9,467 nucleotides of DNA, taken from positions 1 through 9,467 of the forward strand of contig JAHENE010000061.1 in assembly GCA_024643305.1 (NCBI GenBank), in the 5' to 3' direction. The stretch is from Thiobacillaceae bacterium (GTDB lineage: Bacteria > Pseudomonadota > Gammaproteobacteria > Burkholderiales > Thiobacillaceae). Below, piece by piece: positions 1,697 to 9,467 of this stretch (position 1 is its first letter; every line of letters starts with the position of its first letter). The notes below the pieces were generated by a model. It saw only the letters and a program-made list of their open reading frames with translations, did not search any database and was not told the origin of the DNA. The translations under genes were made by a program, and so were the position numbers.

Positions 1697-2242
1697 ATGA
1701 GTGATCCGGCACTTTGGCTGGAGGAGCATGGAGATTATTTGTTCCGGTACGCTCGAAGGCGTCTTTATACGGATGAGCTGGCCGAGGATGCAGTGCAAGA
1801 GACACTGCTGGCGGCACTGAAAGCACGTGAAAAGTTTGCCGGCGCCAGTTCTGAGCGAACCTGGTTGACGGGCATACTTAAGCACAAGATTGTCGATACG
1901 ATAAGAATCCAGGCGCGCGAAATAACGGCTCCAAGCGGGTCTGATGCGGAAGACCCAAGTGATTGGGAGGCGCTTTTTGATCAAAGCGGCCATTGGCTTG
2001 AAACCGTCAGGGACTGGGGTGATCCTTCTTCCGAACTTGAAAAATCCCGTATCCGCCAGGCGCTGGACGATTGTTTCAGGCGACTTAAACCGGCGCTCGC
2101 ACAGATTTTTTCACTTCGTGAGCTATCTGGCTTAGGCAACGAGGAAATATGTAAGGAGCTCAACATCACTGCGACGAATGCGTGGGTGATGCTGCATCGA
2201 GCCCGTTTGTTCCTTCGGGAATGTTTGGATACCCGAATCTAG
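1697..2242 (+). CDS. ECF RNA polymerase sigma factor (TIGR02943-like)
   Basis: A 181-residue extracytoplasmic-function sigma factor with only the two canonical domains. Region 2 spans about residues 8-75, with D-A-V-Q-E-T-L-L at 31-38 and R-T-W-L-T-G-I-L-K-H-K-I-V-D at 54-67. Region 4 spans about 118-176, with the helix-turn-helix N-E-E-I-C-K-E-L-N-I-T-A-T-N-A-W-V-M-L-H-R-A-R. The linker W-E-A-L-F-D-Q-S-G-H-W and the T-N-A-W-V-M-L-H-R-A-R tail resemble the TIGR02943 sigma family as I remember it. It would direct polymerase to its own operon. The next gene is its likely anti-sigma factor, whose ribosome binding site overlaps this stop codon. Because precursor, MNIO enzyme and partner follow on the same strand, the sigma factor probably controls them, as RpoQ does for the gig operon and SigF for Caulobacter bufferins (known systems). 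The inducing signal, perhaps copper or another metal, is inference. Confidence 0.92.
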   Translation: MSDPALWLEEHGDYLFRYARRRLYTDELAEDAVQETLLAALKAREKFAGASSERTWLTGILKHKIVDTIRIQAREITAPSGSDAEDPSDWEALFDQSGHWLETVRDWGDPSSELEKSRIRQALDDCFRRLKPALAQIFSLRELSGLGNEEICKELNITATNAWVMLHRARLFLRECLDTRI

Positions 2243-2250
2243 GGGGCATG

Positions 2251-2499
2251 ATGGGAATGATTCATAAAACCTGTAAGGAGACCTCGATGCTGGTGACTCA
2301 GTCACTGGATCGCAGGCTGACATGGAGTGAACGCATGAGCATGGGCATTCACTTGGCTATTTGTGACAATTGCGCCCGTTTCATGAGGCAGATGCATGCG
2401 CTCAGAACATGGTTGAGCACTGAAGATGAATCTACCCAGCCGGGACTGAGTGAGGAAAGTCGCGAGCGAATTTCCCAAAAGTTGCGGGAGGGGGAGTAG
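2251..2499 (+). CDS. Small zinc-finger anti-sigma factor (zf-HC2/ZAS-like)
   Basis: An 82-residue soluble protein with no membrane segment. It shows a zinc-binding pattern: H-K-T-C at residues 5-8, then H34-x3-C38-x2-C41 (H-L-A-I-C-D-N-C), the layout of zinc-binding anti-sigma domains. The region S-L-D-R-R-L-T-W-S-E-R-M before the His is the usual helical part of this family. It lies directly behind the ECF sigma gene, which is the usual place for its cognate anti-sigma factor. In ZAS proteins the metal site or its cysteines can sense oxidation or metals and then release the sigma factor (family knowledge). The start is uncertain: ATGs at 2248, 2251 and 2257 are all in frame behind an AGGGGG at 2241-2246, and 2287 has a good AAGGAG but would remove the conserved N-terminal Cys. 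I chose 2251 for spacing. Confidence 0.8.
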   Translation: MGMIHKTCKETSMLVTQSLDRRLTWSERMSMGIHLAICDNCARFMRQMHALRTWLSTEDESTQPGLSEESRERISQKLREGE

Positions 2500-2564: not shown

Positions 2565-3014
2565 ATGGCAAGCAGGAAAAAAACAATTAGCGTGGCCGTC
2601 GGCTCGGCTTTTGTGGCGGGCATCACGATGGCCCCGATGACGAACGCGGCAGACAACCCATTCGCCTTGCAAAGCCTGCAGCGCGGTTACATGGTGGCTG
2701 ACGCTAACACTACAGAAGCAAAATGTGGACAGGGCAGGTGCGGTGGTGCCATGGCTTCTGCAGCCAAGGCTGGTGAAGCCAAATGTGGCATGAGCATGAT
2801 GGATGCCAATAAGGACGGCAGGATTTCCAGGGGTGAATTCAGGAAAGCCCACGATGCAATGTTTGCCGCCAAGGACAAAAACAAGAACGGTTACATTGAC
2901 GCCGACGAAATGACTGTCCCAATGGAAGCTGCGCCTGCGGCAGTTGCGCCAGCAGGCAAGGCTGGCGAAGCCAAGTGCGGCCAAGGCAGGTGCGGCGCCA
3001 TGCCCAAGAAATAA
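2565..3014 (+). CDS. bufA: Exported Cys-motif RiPP precursor with two EF-hands (BufA/HvfA-like)
   Basis: A 149-residue protein. Residues 1-28 form a Sec signal peptide: M-A-S-R-K-K, a hydrophobic core, and cleavage near T-N-A|A-D. Next comes N-P-F-A-L-Q-S-L-Q-R-G-Y-M-V-A (31-45), matching the segment that precedes the EGKCG motifs in HvfA/bufferin-type precursors. Three cysteine motifs follow: E-A-K-C-G-Q-G-R-C-G at 51-60, E-A-K-C-G at 71-75 and E-A-K-C-G-Q-G-R-C-G at 135-144, giving five cysteines in all (54, 59, 74, 138, 143). Between the second and third motifs lie two canonical EF-hand loops, D80-x-N82-x-D84-G-x-I-S88-x-x-E91 and D104-x-N106-x-N108-G-x-I-D112-x-x-E115, and then an Ala/Pro linker. 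In the known family, MNIO enzymes turn such cysteines into oxazolone/thioamide or thiooxazole groups that bind copper. The EF-hand insertion is the odd part and suggests calcium binding or calcium-dependent folding in the periplasm. The bufB gene starts 13 nt downstream. Confidence 0.88.
   Translation: MASRKKTISVAVGSAFVAGITMAPMTNAADNPFALQSLQRGYMVADANTTEAKCGQGRCGGAMASAAKAGEAKCGMSMMDANKDGRISRGEFRKAHDAMFAAKDKNKNGYIDADEMTVPMEAAPAAVAPAGKAGEAKCGQGRCGAMPKK
2715..2996 (+). repeat. Three repeated EAKCG core motifs in the precursor
   Basis: Motif copies are encoded at 2715-2744, 2775-2789 and 2967-2996. Copies 2 and 3 share the longer K-A-G-E-A-K-C-G block (2766-2789 and 2958-2981), with synonymous differences between the DNA copies (for example AAATGTGGC against AAGTGCGGC). 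Copies 1 and 3 share the full ten residues including the second Cys. The middle copy lacks the second Cys and runs straight into the first EF-hand loop. The pattern suggests internal duplication with the EF-hands lodged between copies. Confidence 0.85.
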
Positions 3015-3027
3015 AGCGTTGTGCGCC

Positions 3028-3894
3028 ATGGATACCGTCGTGCAAAACGTGCCGATTTGTGGCGCCGGCCTCGGGTATCGCAGAGAATTGATGGAAGCCC
3101 TCGATGCCGGCGTGCCTGATGTCATCCGGTTTTTCGAAATTGCGCCGGAAAACTGGATTGACATGGGTGGCGCCTTGGGGCGGCGCTTCAGGGCTTTTGC
3201 CGAGCAACACCGCTTTGTCTGCCACGGTCTTTCGTTATCTTTAGGAGGCCCATCCCCGCTGGATGAAATGCTGTTGCGCAAGATCAAGGATTTTCTCGAC
3301 CAATTCAAGATCCCGCTCTACACCGAGCATTTGTCCTATTGTGCAGATGATGGGCACCTCTATGATCTGCTGCCAATCCCCATGACGGGCGAAGCCGTGA
3401 AATATGTGGCTGCGCGCATCCGTCATACCCAGGAAATCCTGGAAAGACGCATCGCCATTGAGAATGCCTCGTTTTACGTCAACGCGCCCATGGCTGAAAT
3501 GGACGAACCGACTTTCGTTCGAGCGGTACTGGAAGAGGCAGATTGCAACCTGCACCTTGACGTCAATAATGTCTATGTAAACAGCGTCAACCATGGATTT
3601 GACCCCCGTACCTACATTGCAGCGATGCCGGCTGACCGTGTGGTTTATATGCACACTGCCGGGCATTACTACGAGGCGGAGGATTTCATTATTGATACCC
3701 ATGGTGCAGACGTCATTGATCCGGTATGGGAGTTGCTCGATTTTACATACCAAACCCTGGGCGTACGGCCAACCCTGCTTGAGCGCGACTTCAATATCCC
3801 GCCATTGGCGGAGTTGGTGAAAGAGATCGAGCGAATCGATGTTTTGCAGCGCAAATACGAGCAAACCCCGTATGTTCGGCATGTGCATGGATGA
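3028..3894 (+). CDS. bufB: MNIO (DUF692) peptide-modifying iron enzyme, BufB/HvfB-like
   Basis: A 288-residue cytoplasmic TIM-barrel enzyme of the multinuclear non-heme iron-dependent oxidase family (DUF692). Expected metal-site and core motifs are all present: G-A-G-L-G-Y-R at 12-18, E-I-A-P-E-N at 37-42, H66-G-L-S-L-S, E100-H101-L-S-Y, E145-N-A-S-F-Y, H176-L-D178-V-N-N, H209-T-A-G-H213, D223-T-H225-G and L-L-E252-R-D. Family members oxidise cysteines of a precursor peptide; in HvfB and BufB the targets are EGKCG-type cysteines. The natural substrate here is the protein encoded 13 nt upstream, and the partner is encoded by the overlapping downstream gene. I chose the ATG at 3028 because the family N-terminus begins just after it; the ribosome binding site is weak, which suggests coupling to the precursor gene. 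An in-frame ATG at 2944 lies inside the precursor gene and is rejected. Confidence 0.95.
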   Translation: MDTVVQNVPICGAGLGYRRELMEALDAGVPDVIRFFEIAPENWIDMGGALGRRFRAFAEQHRFVCHGLSLSLGGPSPLDEMLLRKIKDFLDQFKIPLYTEHLSYCADDGHLYDLLPIPMTGEAVKYVAARIRHTQEILERRIAIENASFYVNAPMAEMDEPTFVRAVLEEADCNLHLDVNNVYVNSVNHGFDPRTYIAAMPADRVVYMHTAGHYYEAEDFIIDTHGADVIDPVWELLDFTYQTLGVRPTLLERDFNIPPLAELVKEIERIDVLQRKYEQTPYVRHVHG

Positions 3895-4639
3895 ACTGCC
3901 TTCATTTCAGGCGTTTCAATACGCATTCGCTGCCCACATCCGCGACCCAAAAAATGTGAAACGTCCGCAGGGTGTGCCGGCTCGGCGCATGGCTGTTTAC
4001 AACGAACTGCTTCATAGCAATATCGAAAGTTTTTTGTTGAGCTGCTTCCCGGTGCTGAGAAAAGTTCTTGGCAGCAGAAAATGGGCCCGGCTGGTGCGGG
4101 CTTTTATCGCAGAGCATCGTAGCAATACGCCTTATTTCAGACAGATATCGGACGAATTCCTGCGATTCTTGCAGAATGAATGGCAGCCGGACGACAGTTA
4201 CCCAAACTACCTTCTGGATCTGGCGCATTACGAATGGATAGAGCTTGTGTTATCAGTTTCAAATCATGACGAGCATCTACCGGTGTTTGATGCGCAGGGT
4301 GATCTGCTTGACGGGCGACCATTGTTAACCCCCGTATTGGCGAACCTTGCCTACCGCTACCCTGTACACTGCATCAAACCGCGCATGAAAGTTGTGGGGA
4401 AACCCACTTATCTCCTGGTGTTCCGGAACGCCGCATTGCAGGTTAGGTTCATGGAGCAAAGCGGCGTTAGCGCACGCCTGCTTGCTTTGCTGGAAGGAGG
4501 AGGACTAACCGGGAGGCAGGCAGTGGAACAATTGGCCTTGGAACTGGGCCACCCAAATCCGGCGCAACTGATTGGGTTTGCTAGGGAGTATCTCGAAGAG
4601 CTTCGCGCAGCCGGTGTGGTATTGGGAACGCAATGCTGA
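3887..4639 (+). CDS. bufC: DUF2063 MNIO partner protein, BufC/HvfC-like
   Basis: A 250-residue protein of the DUF2063 family. Its N-terminal half shows the family pattern: F-Q-Y-A-F-A-A-H-I-R-D-P near 11-21, G-V-P-A-R-R-M-A-V-Y-N-E-L near 29-41, S-C-F-P-V-L-R-K-V-L-G near 52-62 and the T-P-Y-F-R-Q-I-S-D-E-F-L-R-F-L block near 81-95. The C-terminal half, about 150-250, is the second domain, thought to act as the precursor-recognition part. Known partners bind the MNIO enzyme and deliver the precursor. The ATG at 3887 overlaps the bufB stop by 8 nt; ATGs at 3872 and 3881 are in frame, but 3887 fits the family N-terminus best. The overlap implies translational coupling and a fixed ratio with BufB. 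No DoxX-like gene follows; the operon ends here. Confidence 0.92.
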   Translation: MDELPSFQAFQYAFAAHIRDPKNVKRPQGVPARRMAVYNELLHSNIESFLLSCFPVLRKVLGSRKWARLVRAFIAEHRSNTPYFRQISDEFLRFLQNEWQPDDSYPNYLLDLAHYEWIELVLSVSNHDEHLPVFDAQGDLLDGRPLLTPVLANLAYRYPVHCIKPRMKVVGKPTYLLVFRNAALQVRFMEQSGVSARLLALLEGGGLTGRQAVEQLALELGHPNPAQLIGFAREYLEELRAAGVVLGTQC

Positions 4640-4750: not shown

Positions 4751-6685
4751 TTACTTGATGATGCGCAGTTCCACGCGGCGGTTTTGGGCGCGACCATCTG
4801 CTGATCCGTTGTCAGCAACTGGCATGGATTCGCCATAACCCTTGGAAGTAAGGCGGTTGGCATCAATGCCCTTTGAAATGAAGTAGTCCATCACGGCTTG
4901 AGCGCGACGTCCGGAAAGCCCCTCGTTGTACTCATCCGTGCCTACAGCATCGGTGTGGCCGCCAACCTCGACCTTGATTTCAGGGTAGCGCGCCAGGGTT
5001 GCGATCACATCGTCGAGAATGGGCAGCGCATCGTCGCGCAGGGCGGATTGGTCAAAGTCAAAGTTCACACCCTTGAGAACGGTAATTTCTTTCAGTGGGC
5101 AGCCAGTGTGGTCAACCTTTGTGCCTGCAGCGGTGTTCGGGCAGAGATCCTTATCATCGGTTACGCCATCACCATCGCTGTCGCCTATGACTGCAGCGGC
5201 AGGTGCGGCAGCAGGCGCTGCAGCAGGTGCGGCAGTAGCGGGGCCAGATTCAGGCGGAAGCAGGCTGGGATTGGCCGCCATAGCGTCGGCAAAAACCTTG
5301 TCCTTGTCGAGGAAGAGCTGATCTGCAGCAGACAGGGGGCAGATGGTGTCCGGGTCGAATTCAGCCTTCTCTTTTCCGTCGAACAGGTTGGGCGTATCCA
5401 GGCGCTGCAGACCGATAGCGGCAAGCAGATTGCCCATGGAAGCCTGTGTGCGGCCATAGGACTGGATGTAGTCGTGCGTGGCATTTACGTAGGCACGGCG
5501 TGCTTCAAACAGCTCATTTTCGGTGTCCAGCAGGTCAAGCAGGGTGCGCTGGCCAATATCAAACTGTTTGCGATAAGCATCGCGGGCTTTTTCGGTGGAA
5601 GTCAGATGCTGTTCAAGATACCTGAGCTGCTCTTCCAGGCGGAAGATATCGTTGTGCGCGATGCTCAAGGTTTGACGAACGTCGCGACACTCCTTGTCAC
5701 GCAAGTCCTTGGCCACATTTACGCGTTCAACATACTGGCGTTCGGCAGCCTTGTCGGAGCCACCGTTATAAAGGTTGTAATTCATGGCCAGACCAATTTT
5801 ACGGTCGTCGTAGTTGCCATCATATCCATTGGTGTCCCATCCCCAGGACTGGCTGGCTTGAAGGTCGAGCCGCGGGTAATATCTGGCGCGGCGGACCTGG
5901 ACGTCGGCCAGCGAGGAAACAATATTTTCGTTGGCTGCTGCCAGAGCGGGGTTGCCTTCGTATGCTTTTCTCAGGGCGTCGACCTTCTTGGAAGGTACGC
6001 CTTCCTTAAGGTAGCCAAGACCCGCCATTTCAGATGGGGGGAGGGTGCCTACAAGGCGCTGGTAGCGTGCGCTTACATCATGCAAATTGCTGGCTTCGGT
6101 CAGCAAATTGGATTCGGCAAGGGCCAAACGGCCGGCGGCTTGCTCAAGATCAACGCCACGGCCTACGCCCAGTTTTACCTTGCGCTGGATCTGTTCATAA
6201 ACCGCGCGGTGCTGGACATAATTTTGCTCGGCAAGCTTGTGGAGTTCACGATAGCGCAGCACATCGTTGTAGGCGCGCATCGTTTCCACTGCCGTACTTT
6301 CCGAGGCGTCGAGGAGTTCGTAATAACGAACGCGTTGGGCATAGCTGAGGCGCTTGACGTCATTGCGGGTTGCAAAGCCGTCAAACAGTATTTGATTAAG
6401 CCGCAGTTCAATGCCCTTGGATGTGAAATCTCGATGTCCGCCAGCGGCAACCGGATCGTCCCTGTGCTCGCTAAAGATACCCGCGTTAAGATCAACCGTT
6501 GGCAGGTAACGTCCCTTTACGGTATCGATGGTCTCGGTGGCCTCCTTGTAGGCATGCCATTTGGCCTGCACCTCTGGATTGCGTAGCACAGCTTCCTGAG
6601 CCGCATCCTTTAGCGTAATGGGTTGAGCATAAGCTGTGCCAACCATTGCAGCCATAATAGAAACTCGGAACCAATACGGAATCAT
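4751..6685 (-). CDS. TolC-family outer membrane channel fused to OmpA peptidoglycan-binding domain
   Basis: A 644-residue protein. Residues 1-20 are a signal peptide ending A-Y-A|Q. Residues about 21-440 form the two OEP repeats of TolC-type channels (type I secretion family), with D-A-A-Q-E-A-V-L-R-N-P-E near the start, L-R-L-N-Q-I-L-F-D-G in the first repeat, and L-A-M-N-Y-N-L-Y-N-G-G and R-T-L-L-D-L-L-D-T-E-N-E-L in the second. A Pro/Ala linker (477-501) and an acidic D-S-D-G-D-G-V repeat with two cysteines (502-532, thrombospondin type-3-like) lead to an OmpA C-terminal domain at 533-644. That domain has peptidoglycan-contact residues Asp579 and Arg594 (G-H-T-D and S-G-R-R-A). Next to divergent lapG and lapD, it is probably the LapE-like outer-membrane exit for a giant adhesin, anchored to the wall by its own OmpA part. 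The upstream in-frame ATG at 6727 is rejected because AAGGGG precedes 6685. Confidence 0.93.
   Translation of the reverse strand: MIPYWFRVSIMAAMVGTAYAQPITLKDAAQEAVLRNPEVQAKWHAYKEATETIDTVKGRYLPTVDLNAGIFSEHRDDPVAAGGHRDFTSKGIELRLNQILFDGFATRNDVKRLSYAQRVRYYELLDASESTAVETMRAYNDVLRYRELHKLAEQNYVQHRAVYEQIQRKVKLGVGRGVDLEQAAGRLALAESNLLTEASNLHDVSARYQRLVGTLPPSEMAGLGYLKEGVPSKKVDALRKAYEGNPALAAANENIVSSLADVQVRRARYYPRLDLQASQSWGWDTNGYDGNYDDRKIGLAMNYNLYNGGSDKAAERQYVERVNVAKDLRDKECRDVRQTLSIAHNDIFRLEEQLRYLEQHLTSTEKARDAYRKQFDIGQRTLLDLLDTENELFEARRAYVNATHDYIQSYGRTQASMGNLLAAIGLQRLDTPNLFDGKEKAEFDPDTICPLSAADQLFLDKDKVFADAMAANPSLLPPESGPATAAPAAAPAAAPAAAVIGDSDGDGVTDDKDLCPNTAAGTKVDHTGCPLKEITVLKGVNFDFDQSALRDDALPILDDVIATLARYPEIKVEVGGHTDAVGTDEYNEGLSGRRAQAVMDYFISKGIDANRLTSKGYGESMPVADNGSADGRAQNRRVELRIIK
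5192..5227 (-). repeat. Three 12-nt tandem repeats encoding Pro-Ala-Ala-Ala
   Basis: On the minus strand three consecutive 12-nt units start with CCT (5227-5216, 5215-5204, 5203-5192) and each encodes P-A-A-A in the linker between channel and OmpA domains. The units differ only at third codon positions. Linker length could vary between strains by slippage. Confidence 0.85.
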
Positions 6686-6691
6686 TTCAAA

Positions 6692-6911: not shown

Positions 6912-7601
6912 ATGTTGTATTTTCGACAAACTGGGTTTCTCGGAAAGTGCCTGATTATCGGGCTTTTCTTCCTGGGCATCCCCAATCCTCAGGCTGCGCT
7001 GCCAAATGTGGAGAAAATGCTCCTGTTGGCGCAGGCGCGTTATGGCGCCCAAGCCGTCCTGGCTGTGAATCAATGGCGGGAGATGCTGGCAAAATCACAA
7101 GGGAAACCTGAAGCGGAGCAAATTATCCGAATTAACGACTTCTTTAATCGCAGGATCGTTTTCGAGGATGACCCGGTGATATGGGGGAAGCCGGACTACT
7201 GGGCGACGCCGCTCGAAACTTTGGGACGCGGCATGGGGGATTGCGAAGACTTCGCCATAGCCAAGTATGTTTCACTCAAGAGTCTTGGAATTCCGATCGA
7301 CAAACTTCGGTTGACCTACGTTCGGGCACAACTCGGCGGTTACGGGGGCAGCGTATCGCAGGCGCACATGGTGCTGGCGTATTATCCCCTGCCCAATCAA
7401 GAACCCTTGATTTTGGACAACCTGATCAGTGATATCCGGCCTGCTTCCCAACGAAACGATCTTTTTCCGGTTTTCAGTTTTAACAGCGAAGGTTTGTGGG
7501 TGGGCAATGGCGCCTCGGAAAAACCCTCAGGAAGCCCGACTGCACGGCTTTCTCGCTGGCGCGATGTGATTGCCCGTATGCAGAGTGAGGGTGTTGAATA
7601 G
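6912..7601 (+). CDS. lapG: LapG-type periplasmic cysteine protease (BTLCP, DUF920)
   Basis: A 229-residue bacterial transglutaminase-like cysteine proteinase. Residues 1-28 or 29 are a signal peptide (K12 before the hydrophobic core, then P-Q-A-A). The catalytic triad is visible: Cys111 in G-M-G-D-C-E-D-F-A, His152 in Q-A-H-M-V-L-A-Y-Y and Asp169 in L-I-L-D-N-L. Asp110, Glu112 and Asp113 around the Cys match the calcium site known in LapG. The W-x-T-P-x-E-T-L-G-R-G-M-G block is typical. LapG cuts the N-terminal retention module of LapA-like adhesins after a di-alanine site and so frees cells from the surface; LapD holds it back when c-di-GMP is high. lapD follows 50 nt downstream. No good Shine-Dalgarno sequence precedes the ATG at 6912, yet an in-frame stop at 6894-6896 rules out an earlier start and the signal peptide requires this one. 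Confidence 0.94.
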   Translation: MLYFRQTGFLGKCLIIGLFFLGIPNPQAALPNVEKMLLLAQARYGAQAVLAVNQWREMLAKSQGKPEAEQIIRINDFFNRRIVFEDDPVIWGKPDYWATPLETLGRGMGDCEDFAIAKYVSLKSLGIPIDKLRLTYVRAQLGGYGGSVSQAHMVLAYYPLPNQEPLILDNLISDIRPASQRNDLFPVFSFNSEGLWVGNGASEKPSGSPTARLSRWRDVIARMQSEGVE

Positions 7602-7651: not shown

Positions 7652-9467
7652 ATGTCCCTGTTTAGACGCATCTGGCTAGCAGTAATAGGGCTCACCATCG
7701 CTGCCTTTGCAGGCAGTCTTCTGGTGAATGCTTATTCTGCACGCAGTTATCTGGAAAAACAGCTTTATCTCAAGAATCTGGACAATGCTACGGCGCTGGC
7801 GCTATCCATGTCGCAGATTAGGGAGAAAGACCCAGTAACCATAGAACTATTGCTTTCCGCCCAGTTTGATACCGGCCATTACCAGGAAATCACGCTTAGC
7901 GACCCTGCGGGCAAGGTGGTGGTTGAGCGGGTACAGGAAGTTGATGGCGACATCGGGGCGCCTGCCTGGTTCGTGCGGTTGTTTCCCATCAAAGCCGCTC
8001 CCGGCATTGCCCACGTGCAGGATGGCTGGAAGCAGTTTGGCACCATCACCTTGGCCAGCCAGAGCAAGTTTGCTTACCAGGACCTGTGGAAAAGCACCAT
8101 GGAGCTTTTTGTCTGGTTTCTGGTGGGTGGCGTTATTGCCGGATTGATTGGAACCTTGATGCTGCGGCTTATCACCAAGCCGCTGGATCGTGTTGTCGAG
8201 CAGGCGCAGGCCATCTCCCGCAGGCAGTTCATAACAGTGGATTTGCCAAGAATCCCTGAGTTGAACAGTGTTGTGCAGGCCATGAATGACATGGTGCTAC
8301 GGGTAAAACAGATGTTTGCCGATGAGGCCGCACGACTTGAATTTCTGCGCCAGCAGGCAAACCACGATAGCGTGACTGGACTACCCAACCGGGAATTCTT
8401 CATTAATCGCCTGCGCGATGCATTGGTCAGCGAAGAATCGGCTGCCGGCTTGCTGGCAATAGTTCGACTGGCTGACCTTGAGGCCATCAACGCCAAATTG
8501 GGGCATGACAAAGCTGACCAGTTGCTGCAATCAGTGGCTGGACTCCTTAACAGGGAATGCGCCGTCCAAAGTGACTGGCTGGCTGCGCGAATCCGCGGCT
8601 CGGACTTTTCCATACTTGCCCCACATGCGGTAGATGCCGCCATGCTGGCAGATTCTCTCGATCAATCCATGCGGCAACACGTTGCAACCGCTTTTCCCGA
8701 GCTTGAAAATCTGTTCCACGTTGCGGTTGTCGGCTACAGGCGAGGTGAGGCGATGGATGTCCTGTTGGCCAATGCTGACACAGCCTTGGCTACCGCAGAG
8801 GGCAAAGGGTATAACCAATCGCATGCCAGCGAAGTGCCGGACCATGTTCCGCCCGCCACTTCGGCCGAGGGTTGGCGCAATTTGGTGGCCAATGCCCTAG
8901 CCGAACAGCGCCTGAAGCTTGCACACTTCCCGGTGTTGAACGCCAGCGGACAATCCATTCACCAGGAATGCGCCATTCGCCTGCAAGCGGTGTCGGATGG
9001 CCCGTGGCTTCCAGCTGGCGATTTCATGCCCATGGCCGAACGCCTGAAGCTCACATCAGAACTGGATCTACAAGCCATCAATCTTGCATTGAGCATCCTG
9101 CGGACAGACAGGGGTGATATTGCCGTCAATCTTTCTGCGGACACGATCGCCGACTGGGGGTTTCATAACAAGCTGGTCGAGTTGCTGGAAGGGCAGCAGT
9201 CCTTGTGTCAGCGTCTGTGGGTCGAAGTGGCCGAGCATGGTGTTTTCCGGCAATTGGAAGCCTACCGGGATCTTTGCCGCACACTCAAAAAGCTGGGATG
9301 CCGAGTAGGCGTAGAGCACTTCGGGCACCGCTTCGGCGAGATCGCCAAGTTGTCAGATCTTGGCCTGGATTACCTCAAAGTCGACGGCAGCTTTATCCGT
9401 GACATTCATCAGAATGCCGGCAATCAGGAATTCCTTAAGGGTGTATGCAAGATGGCGCACTCCATTG
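7652..9467 (+). CDS. lapD: LapD-type inside-out c-di-GMP receptor (HAMP, degenerate GGDEF-EAL), partial
   Basis: Open for 605 codons from the ATG at 7652 (TGGAG 8 nt before it) to the window edge. Layout: membrane helix about residues 7-27; periplasmic LapD/MoxY-N domain about 28-150, with P-A-W-F-V-R-L-F-P-I (104-113) and D-G-W-K-Q-F-G (124-130), where Trp126 sits where LapD uses a conserved Trp for LapG contact; second helix about 152-171; HAMP about 172-225; GGDEF-like about 245-410; EAL-like from about 420. Both output domains look inactive: R-G-S-D-F (315-319) replaces GGDEF, E-C-A (439-441) replaces EAL, and E-H-F-G (555-558) replaces the catalytic D-D-F-G. The segment V-A-V-N-L-S and the Y-L-K-V-D-G-S-F-I-R-D end are kept, which is expected of a domain that binds c-di-GMP without cutting it. 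It should capture LapG in the periplasm when c-di-GMP is high. Confidence 0.95.
   Translation, partial: MSLFRRIWLAVIGLTIAAFAGSLLVNAYSARSYLEKQLYLKNLDNATALALSMSQIREKDPVTIELLLSAQFDTGHYQEITLSDPAGKVVVERVQEVDGDIGAPAWFVRLFPIKAAPGIAHVQDGWKQFGTITLASQSKFAYQDLWKSTMELFVWFLVGGVIAGLIGTLMLRLITKPLDRVVEQAQAISRRQFITVDLPRIPELNSVVQAMNDMVLRVKQMFADEAARLEFLRQQANHDSVTGLPNREFFINRLRDALVSEESAAGLLAIVRLADLEAINAKLGHDKADQLLQSVAGLLNRECAVQSDWLAARIRGSDFSILAPHAVDAAMLADSLDQSMRQHVATAFPELENLFHVAVVGYRRGEAMDVLLANADTALATAEGKGYNQSHASEVPDHVPPATSAEGWRNLVANALAEQRLKLAHFPVLNASGQSIHQECAIRLQAVSDGPWLPAGDFMPMAERLKLTSELDLQAINLALSILRTDRGDIAVNLSADTIADWGFHNKLVELLEGQQSLCQRLWVEVAEHGVFRQLEAYRDLCRTLKKLGCRVGVEHFGHRFGEIAKLSDLGLDYLKVDGSFIRDIHQNAGNQEFLKGVCKMAHSI

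Follow-up and report, generated by a model that had tools for sequence, protein, structure and literature searches.

The window, that is, the whole stretch of 9,467 nucleotides that was analysed, includes a small gene whose product combines the cysteine motifs of a RiPP precursor with a pair of EF-hand loops. The question raised by this locus is what an EF-hand pair does in a protein of this kind. The open reading frame at 2565-3014 (+) encodes 149 amino acids plus a stop codon, and its parts and the neighbouring genes are as follows (residue numbers are those of the precursor).

1697..2242 (about), + strand: ECF sigma factor gene (Sigma70_r2 52.9 bits, Sigma70_r4_2 44.0 bits); the frame is open from 1646 and the start was set at 1697, behind AGGAGG
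2251..2499 (about), + strand: zf-HC2 anti-sigma factor gene, start uncertain (zf-HC2 24.8 bits, cut-off 22.2; NF052368 anti-sigma 62.7 bits, cut-off 50)
2350..2373, + strand: HLAICDNC, the ZAS motif (H-x3-C-x2-C) of the anti-sigma factor, as it reads in the frame 2182-2499
2565..3014, + strand: RiPP precursor gene (NCBIfam KCGExKCG_twice, NF050137, 29.8 bits, cut-off 19.5; EF-hand Pfam models)
2565..2651, + strand: likely Sec signal peptide, residues 1-29, MASRKKTISVAVGSAFVAGITMAPMTNAA, judged by eye
2652..2702, + strand: conserved segment DNPFALQSLQRGYMVAD (30-46), a likely recognition leader (P32, F33, G41 and A45 invariant in 77 sequences)
2715..2744, + strand: N-side Cys motif EAKCGQGRCG with C54 and C59 (C59 and G60 invariant in 77 sequences)
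2775..2789, + strand: EAKCG with C74, 6 residues ahead of the calcium ligand D80 (sequence read)
2802..2837, + strand: EF-hand loop 1, DANKDGRISRGE (80-91; Pfam models, sequence read)
2829..2873, + strand: single predicted helix joining the loops (89-103; AlphaFold2 model)
2874..2909, + strand: EF-hand loop 2, DKNKNGYIDADE (104-115; Pfam models, sequence read)
2967..2996, + strand: C-side Cys motif EAKCGQGRCG with C138 and C143 (sequence read)
3028..3894, + strand: MNIO (HvfB family) gene (PF05114 340 bits; NF003818 414.6 bits, cut-off 360)
3887..4639, + strand: HvfC/DUF2063 partner gene, with 3872, 3881 and 3887 as possible starts (PF09836 91.5 bits; NF050145 273 bits, cut-off 142)

The precursor has five K/R-Cys-Gly sites, at residues 54, 59, 74, 138 and 143, which read EAKCG, QGRCG, EAKCG, EAKCG and QGRCG. 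The initial annotation of this DNA had placed two EF-hand loops between the second and third copies of an EGKCG-like motif. The loops, their sequences and their coordinates were correct and the motifs are of the KCG type, but the letters are EAKCG and QGRCG rather than EGKCG. Both Pfam EF-hand_1 (40.3 bits, cut-off 25.4) and EF-hand_5 (PF13202, 37.7 bits, cut-off 25.9) match two stretches of the protein. Since these scores and that of the NCBIfam model exceed their cut-offs, the combination of EF-hands and KCG motifs is not due to chance.

The ECF sigma, anti-sigma, precursor, MNIO and HvfC genes follow one another in this order on the same strand. The precursor stop and the chosen MNIO start are separated by 13 bases, and the HvfC/DUF2063 gene overlaps the 3′-end of the MNIO gene whichever of its likely starts is used. 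The precursor had been described as lying immediately upstream of MNIO and partner genes, and this was borne out by an HvfB-family MNIO and an HvfC-family partner, both over the cut-offs. The sigma and anti-sigma pair upstream, absent from that description, includes an anti-sigma factor of the ZAS type, as indicated by its H-x3-C-x2-C motif, which has been described for NMB2145 of Neisseria. A scan for promoters and terminators gave counts not above those expected from shuffled sequences. On the MNIO tree, the window lies nearest to L002 (Thiobacillus sp. UBA6918), with 85% identity in the columns used for the tree.

The gene after HvfC, on the opposite strand (4751-6691), encodes a protein in which a TolC-family outer membrane part is joined at its C-terminus to an OmpA domain. 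A weak match to thrombospondin type 3 lies between the two, and in L002 this protein was matched as two pieces. It is followed by a gene for a LapG-like cysteine protease (6912-7601, +; Peptidase_C93; LapG model 229.8 bits, below the cut-off of 320) and, adjoining the latter, one for a LapD-type HAMP-GGDEF-EAL protein (7652-9466, +). Together with the TolC gene beside them, these have the look of a system for adhesin release. A connection of these downstream TolC/LapG genes with the EF precursor was considered and rejected, LapG being found in one of 80 genome-contig loci (L002) with flanks of at most 5 kb, many of them shorter.

Assignment to known classes

The initial annotation left open whether the precursor subclass was new. 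The class is already published (PMC12452194; EfhP, PMC4053335; the calcium and iron idea, PMC11559002), and with it the central idea of that annotation, a hybrid of modifiable cysteine motifs and EF-hands, is in print (PMC12452194 and the EfhP papers). The closest description is that of the Buf_EGKC|EF-hand_5 chimaera class, which has EGKCG-type motifs in a part predicted to be unstructured, two EF-hand_5 domains and an association with MNIOs (PMC12452194). The window precursor shares the two EF-hand_5 domains, the adjoining MNIO and DUF2063 genes and a motif domain of the EGKCG type, the latter recognized by NF050137 rather than by the authors' Buf_EGKCG profile and with the letters EAKCG and QGRCG. 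In the published class, however, the EF-hands are fused C-terminally to the EGKCG domain, while in the window KCG motifs stand on both sides, with C138 and C143 beyond the EF pair. Therefore, we file the precursor as a variant of this class and not as a plain member. The features given in the class descriptions of PMC12452194 do not include the distance between cysteine and calcium ligand, the loop spacing or the turnover of the EF block.

A second relative is EfhP (PA4107) of Pseudomonas, described in 2014 with adjoining DUF692 and DUF2063 genes (PMC4053335); as in the window, an EF-hand pair and EGKCG repeats precede these genes. Two loci, L060 (a Pseudomonas) and L273, were taken as the EfhP type. 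They have loops 27 residues apart and a register, the distance from the last N-side Cys to calcium ligand 1, of 9, with no C-side Cys and no sigma pair found, whereas the window has a spacing of 24 and a register of 6. The border of the EfhP type is blurred by L255, which has a spacing of 27 but a register of 6 and C-side cysteines.

The cluster fits the HvfA/captophorin type. KCG cysteines of FonA, HvfA and gonophorin are converted to 5-thiooxazoles, and association with copper has been reported (PMC13097082). The window shares with these captophorins the KCG motifs and the HvfB/HvfC-type enzymes, although its precursor scores 25.7 bits with the HvfA equivalog NF050188, below the cut-off of 95. 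The term EF-hand has no occurrence in the captophorin paper (PMC13097082), and the window precursor has EF-hands. As a consequence of these comparisons, half of the original label "bufferin/HvfA-type" stands. The bufferin half (BufA/BufB; Buf1) was rejected, as no DUF2282 match was found at E <= 1 and the MNIO scores 256 bits with the BufB model NF050167, below its cut-off of 310.

The upstream genes resemble those of the Neisseria rpoE operon NMB2140-2145, in which an ECF sigma factor and a ZAS anti-sigma factor share one operon with NMB2140-2143 (PMC2893595). We link this operon to gonophorin through NGO1945, the DUF2063 protein of the matching gonococcal operon. The Neisseria operon differs in having a DoxX-like gene, for which there was no match among the ten window proteins scanned, and the EF-hands of the window precursor are another difference. 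A related Haemophilus sigma factor responds to hypochlorite (PMC7907618).

The EF pair and its surroundings among relatives

A search identified 318 homologues at E <= 0.001, and all 120 of those listed have EF-hand Pfam domains. The hybrid architecture that had been proposed is real, conserved and tied to MNIO genes. The EF pair occurs in 38 of the 190 loci that have a KCG precursor and a distinct MNIO, a proportion that is not a frequency because some of the loci (from L002-L081) were found through precursor patterns. An EF pair was called from a score above 12 bits with the profile of a 77-row alignment together with one strict loop, so very divergent pairs could be missed. KCG or CGG motifs flank the EF pair on both sides in 28 of the 38 precursors; they are found on the N-side only in nine and on the C-side only in one.

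The position of the last N-side cysteine is also recurrent. In 26 of the 38 precursors, and in 111 of 118 listed homologues with two strict loops (the 120 minus two that were dropped), calcium ligand 1 comes 6 residues after it. This register occurs together with EF spacings of 24, 26, 27 and 42; other registers are 9 in the two EfhP-like loci and in L142, and 8 in L148. The loops are 24 residues apart in 29 of the 38 precursors, 27 in three, 26 in two and 42 in two, with one strict loop in the remaining two, and the 36-residue spacing of the calmodulin type was found in none of the 38. A spacing of 24 also occurs in other bacterial EF-hand proteins. The loop 1 of L018 and L123 is degenerate; these were omitted from the ligand tally, and their register assumes that loop 1 starts 24 residues before loop 2. 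The KCG sandwich, the register of 6, the spacing of 24 and the cassette-like presence described below were not found described in the text of the papers searched.

Because the patterns used to pick loops demand D at ligand 1 and E or D at ligand 12, these two positions are uninformative in the pattern-based counts. The 77-row alignment is free of patterns; it includes 77 of the 120 listed homologues, those with loops 42 apart and some near-duplicates having been omitted by eye. In it, D80, D84, G85, E91, D104, N106 and G109 are invariant. The dN/dS ratio of the EF block was 0.06-0.36 in six of nine pairs (L018/L123 on 15 codons) and undefined in three. Compared with the rest of the precursor, it was higher in three of the six computable pairs and lower in the other three. 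These values indicated that the EF block is under purifying selection that is no stronger than that on its surroundings. The AlphaFold2 model built from the same alignment has a mean pLDDT of 56, with 85-89 over residues 81-110, 72 over residues 111-120 and 37-57 elsewhere. One helix connects the two loops and the flanking tails are predicted to be disordered.

Several variants were seen. In P0009 the unit of KCG motif and EF pair is tandemly duplicated, resulting in four EF-hands spaced 24, 26 and 24, close to the layout of lanmodulin. P0012, L084 and L085 form a subclass with loops 42 apart, and the insert of P0012 has a degenerate EF-like stretch about 24 residues past loop 1. Two KCG/EF/KCG proteins, L289 and L295, are found in genomes G220 and G184 at a distance from the MNIO place of those genomes, and they may be stand-alone precursors modified in trans.

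Presence and absence of the EF block

Two samples show how common the EF pair is. In the window's family, sampled by MNIO alone (72 loci from 73 hits, one without a KCG frame), it is present in 18 of the 71 loci with a KCG precursor and absent from 53. An even draw from the class that includes the window (111 loci from 120 hits, 26 without a KCG frame) has it in eight of 85 loci. In the window's genus it occurs in six of the seven genomes with a match, L094 being the exception. Sigma genes lie upstream in 50 of the 71 family loci and four of the 85 class loci, the window being counted in both; these numbers are lower bounds because some flanks are short.

Precursors with and without the EF pair are otherwise alike. 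Those without it have a segment similar to DNPFALQSLQRGYMVAD, and the leaders of the two kinds are up to 85% identical (L165 and L035). The cleanest of five aligned pairs is L163 and L035, whose MNIOs are 86.6% identical. Their precursors align almost throughout, and the EF block between the KCG motifs is the chief difference, in addition to a 3-residue gap and a ten-residue tail in L035; the other four pairs are less clean. The same amino-acid-kinase gene lies upstream in 10 of 80 genome-contig loci, so this kinase-flanked site is likely orthologous. The EF pair is present there in L002, L003, L004, L008, L015, L018 and L021 and absent from L035 and L053, L040 not having been scored.

The distribution of the EF pair was also followed on MNIO trees. 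On a 190-row tree the trait needs 15 changes, at least six of them forced by starred branches, compared with a mean of 35.0 for shuffled traits; on an 84-row tree it needs nine, at least five of them forced, compared with 24.3. Both are quick trees with some long branches, in which gain is indistinguishable from loss. The EF module is thus present or absent between close relatives in the manner of a plug-in, mostly at one distance from a Cys. The loss of the EF loops in close homologues that keep the Cys motifs was named in the initial annotation as evidence against its proposal, and it is what the 53 of 71 loci and the pair L163/L035 display. Since such relatives keep the pathway, the EF pair is unneeded for the MNIO pathway as such. 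Such relatives, alike in operon and distinguished mainly by the EF block, offer a natural experiment on what a thiooxazole metallophore gains from calcium.

Calcium, copper and alternative roles of the EF pair

We propose that the precursor is a thiooxazole copper chelator that is unfolded for modification and export and is then folded by periplasmic calcium, a reading to which we assign a probability of about 0.6. Judging from its relatives, HvfC would use the leader (NPFALQSL..GYMVA) to present the precursor to HvfB, the MNIO would turn each KCG/RCG Cys into a 5-thiooxazole as happens to FonA, HvfA and gonophorin (PMC13097082), and Sec export would follow modification. The link between enzyme and product is thus made by family, and copper binding, known for the relatives, is predicted for the window precursor. 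By analogy with the systems of Neisseria and Haemophilus, the ECF sigma and ZAS anti-sigma pair may activate the cluster when the cell is stressed by oxidants or metals.

Calcium in the cytoplasm is sub-micromolar. Because this is below a micromolar affinity such as that of EfhP, 13.7 uM (PMC9132961), the loops would be empty in the cytoplasm and the substrate would stay flexible for the enzyme and for Sec. In the periplasm, calcium could fold the protein into a compact loop-helix-loop, which would place C74 right beside calcium site 1 and keep the copper sites of the N-side and of the C-side motifs, one on either side of the compact core, in a fixed geometry. We infer this switch and the interplay of calcium and copper. 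The stable fold of EfhP needs calcium, and its calcium-free form is described as likely a molten globule (PMC9132961). The affinity and the calcium-free state of EfhP suggest loops that are empty inside and filled outside, and for this reason modification in the unfolded state is favoured. The specificity of FonBC fits an unfolded substrate with KCG and RCG sites, since this enzyme takes Arg in place of the Lys but does not tolerate Pro there, which its authors read as a need for flexibility or backbone contacts (PMC13097082). The EAKCG site of native FonA is modified. FonBC acted on a peptide with two repeats, and a FonA peptide with one repeat stayed unmodified (PMC13097082). The latter result counts against the proposal, as C74 sits in a single motif.

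Other observations count against the proposal. Ligand 5 of loop 2 is Asn, the EF block has a higher dN/dS than the rest of the precursor in the three pairs mentioned above, 10 of the 38 EF precursors are one-sided, and the EfhP-like loci differ in spacing, register and C-side Cys. In addition, control of folding is not essential, because the MNIO pathway is kept in relatives that lack the EF pair.

The same absences would be expected if the EF pair were a passive folded spacer or protease-resistant knob that binds calcium and makes the protein more stable in the periplasm but has no influence on the modified cysteines. The KCG precursor and the MNIO stay without it in most family loci, the EF block is the chief difference between L163 and L035, and the tails are predicted to be disordered. 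However, a register of 6 in 26 of the 38 precursors, seen with spacings of 24, 26, 27 and 42, exceeds what a loose spacer needs, and we consider this explanation rather unlikely. Taken further, our calcium-folding proposal leads to a calcium-gated copper chelator in which the EF pair is repeatedly inserted or dropped, in some cases at one chromosomal site and mostly with a Cys abutting the calcium loop, and in which calcium would clamp the thiooxazoles and set their affinity for copper. This full version is unlikely. If it were true, one small protein would act as a logic gate for two metals in the cell envelope. The register between cysteine and calcium ligand predicts that calcium alters how this modified Cys reacts, absorbs light or binds copper. 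This would also tie the calcium phenotypes reported for EfhP to the copper chemistry reported for captophorins.

EfhP also suggests a calcium sensor whose modified cysteines would report iron or copper and whose output would be regulation rather than metal buffering. EfhP is a calcium-binding protein with control over iron-uptake genes, and dual sensing of calcium and iron with involvement of the EGKCG repeats was proposed for it in 2024 (PMC9132961, PMC11559002). The sigma pair upstream in the window would agree with such an output, but sigma genes lie beside 35 of the 53 EF-less and 15 of the 18 EF loci of the family. Being common beside both kinds of precursor, they are no marker of a calcium module, and no receptor gene was noticed in the cluster, which makes a sensor quite improbable.

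Lanmodulin (PDB 6mi5, 8fns), likewise a small protein with EF loops 24 apart, is the best sequence match among solved structures (8.1e-06) and aligns without gaps at that spacing, but a lanthanide site is very improbable, as the lanmodulin model NF053806 gives 28.8 bits (far under its cut-off of 135), the window has two loops instead of four with no Pro at loop position 2 and with KCG motifs added, the 36 precursors scored have 3-4 acidic ligands per loop compared with five in three of the four lanmodulin loops compared, and no PQQ alcohol dehydrogenase scored over its cut-off in the 83%-complete genome. Kinship with lanmodulin was likewise rejected, the match being generic. An EF-hand model of XopAW has just as many matching members (71 of 77 each), and spacings of 24-26 make up 17 of the 38 adjacent EF spacings below 60 in 30 class loci with EF-hand hits, a count in which some are entered twice where L279 and L308 overlap and three come from KCG proteins including the window. 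These counts indicated that a spacing of 24 denotes a short bacterial EF pair and not a lanthanide protein.

EF-hand proteins without KCG motifs score up to 66.9 bits with the EF-pair profile, compared with 82.6 for the window, so the pair may have been recruited from a general pool. A Nitrosomonas protein (L066, 4803-5231) has a similar EF pair in which His-rich tails replace the KCG motifs, in a locus where no MNIO was found. The pair may serve more generally as the core of proteins with metal-binding tails.
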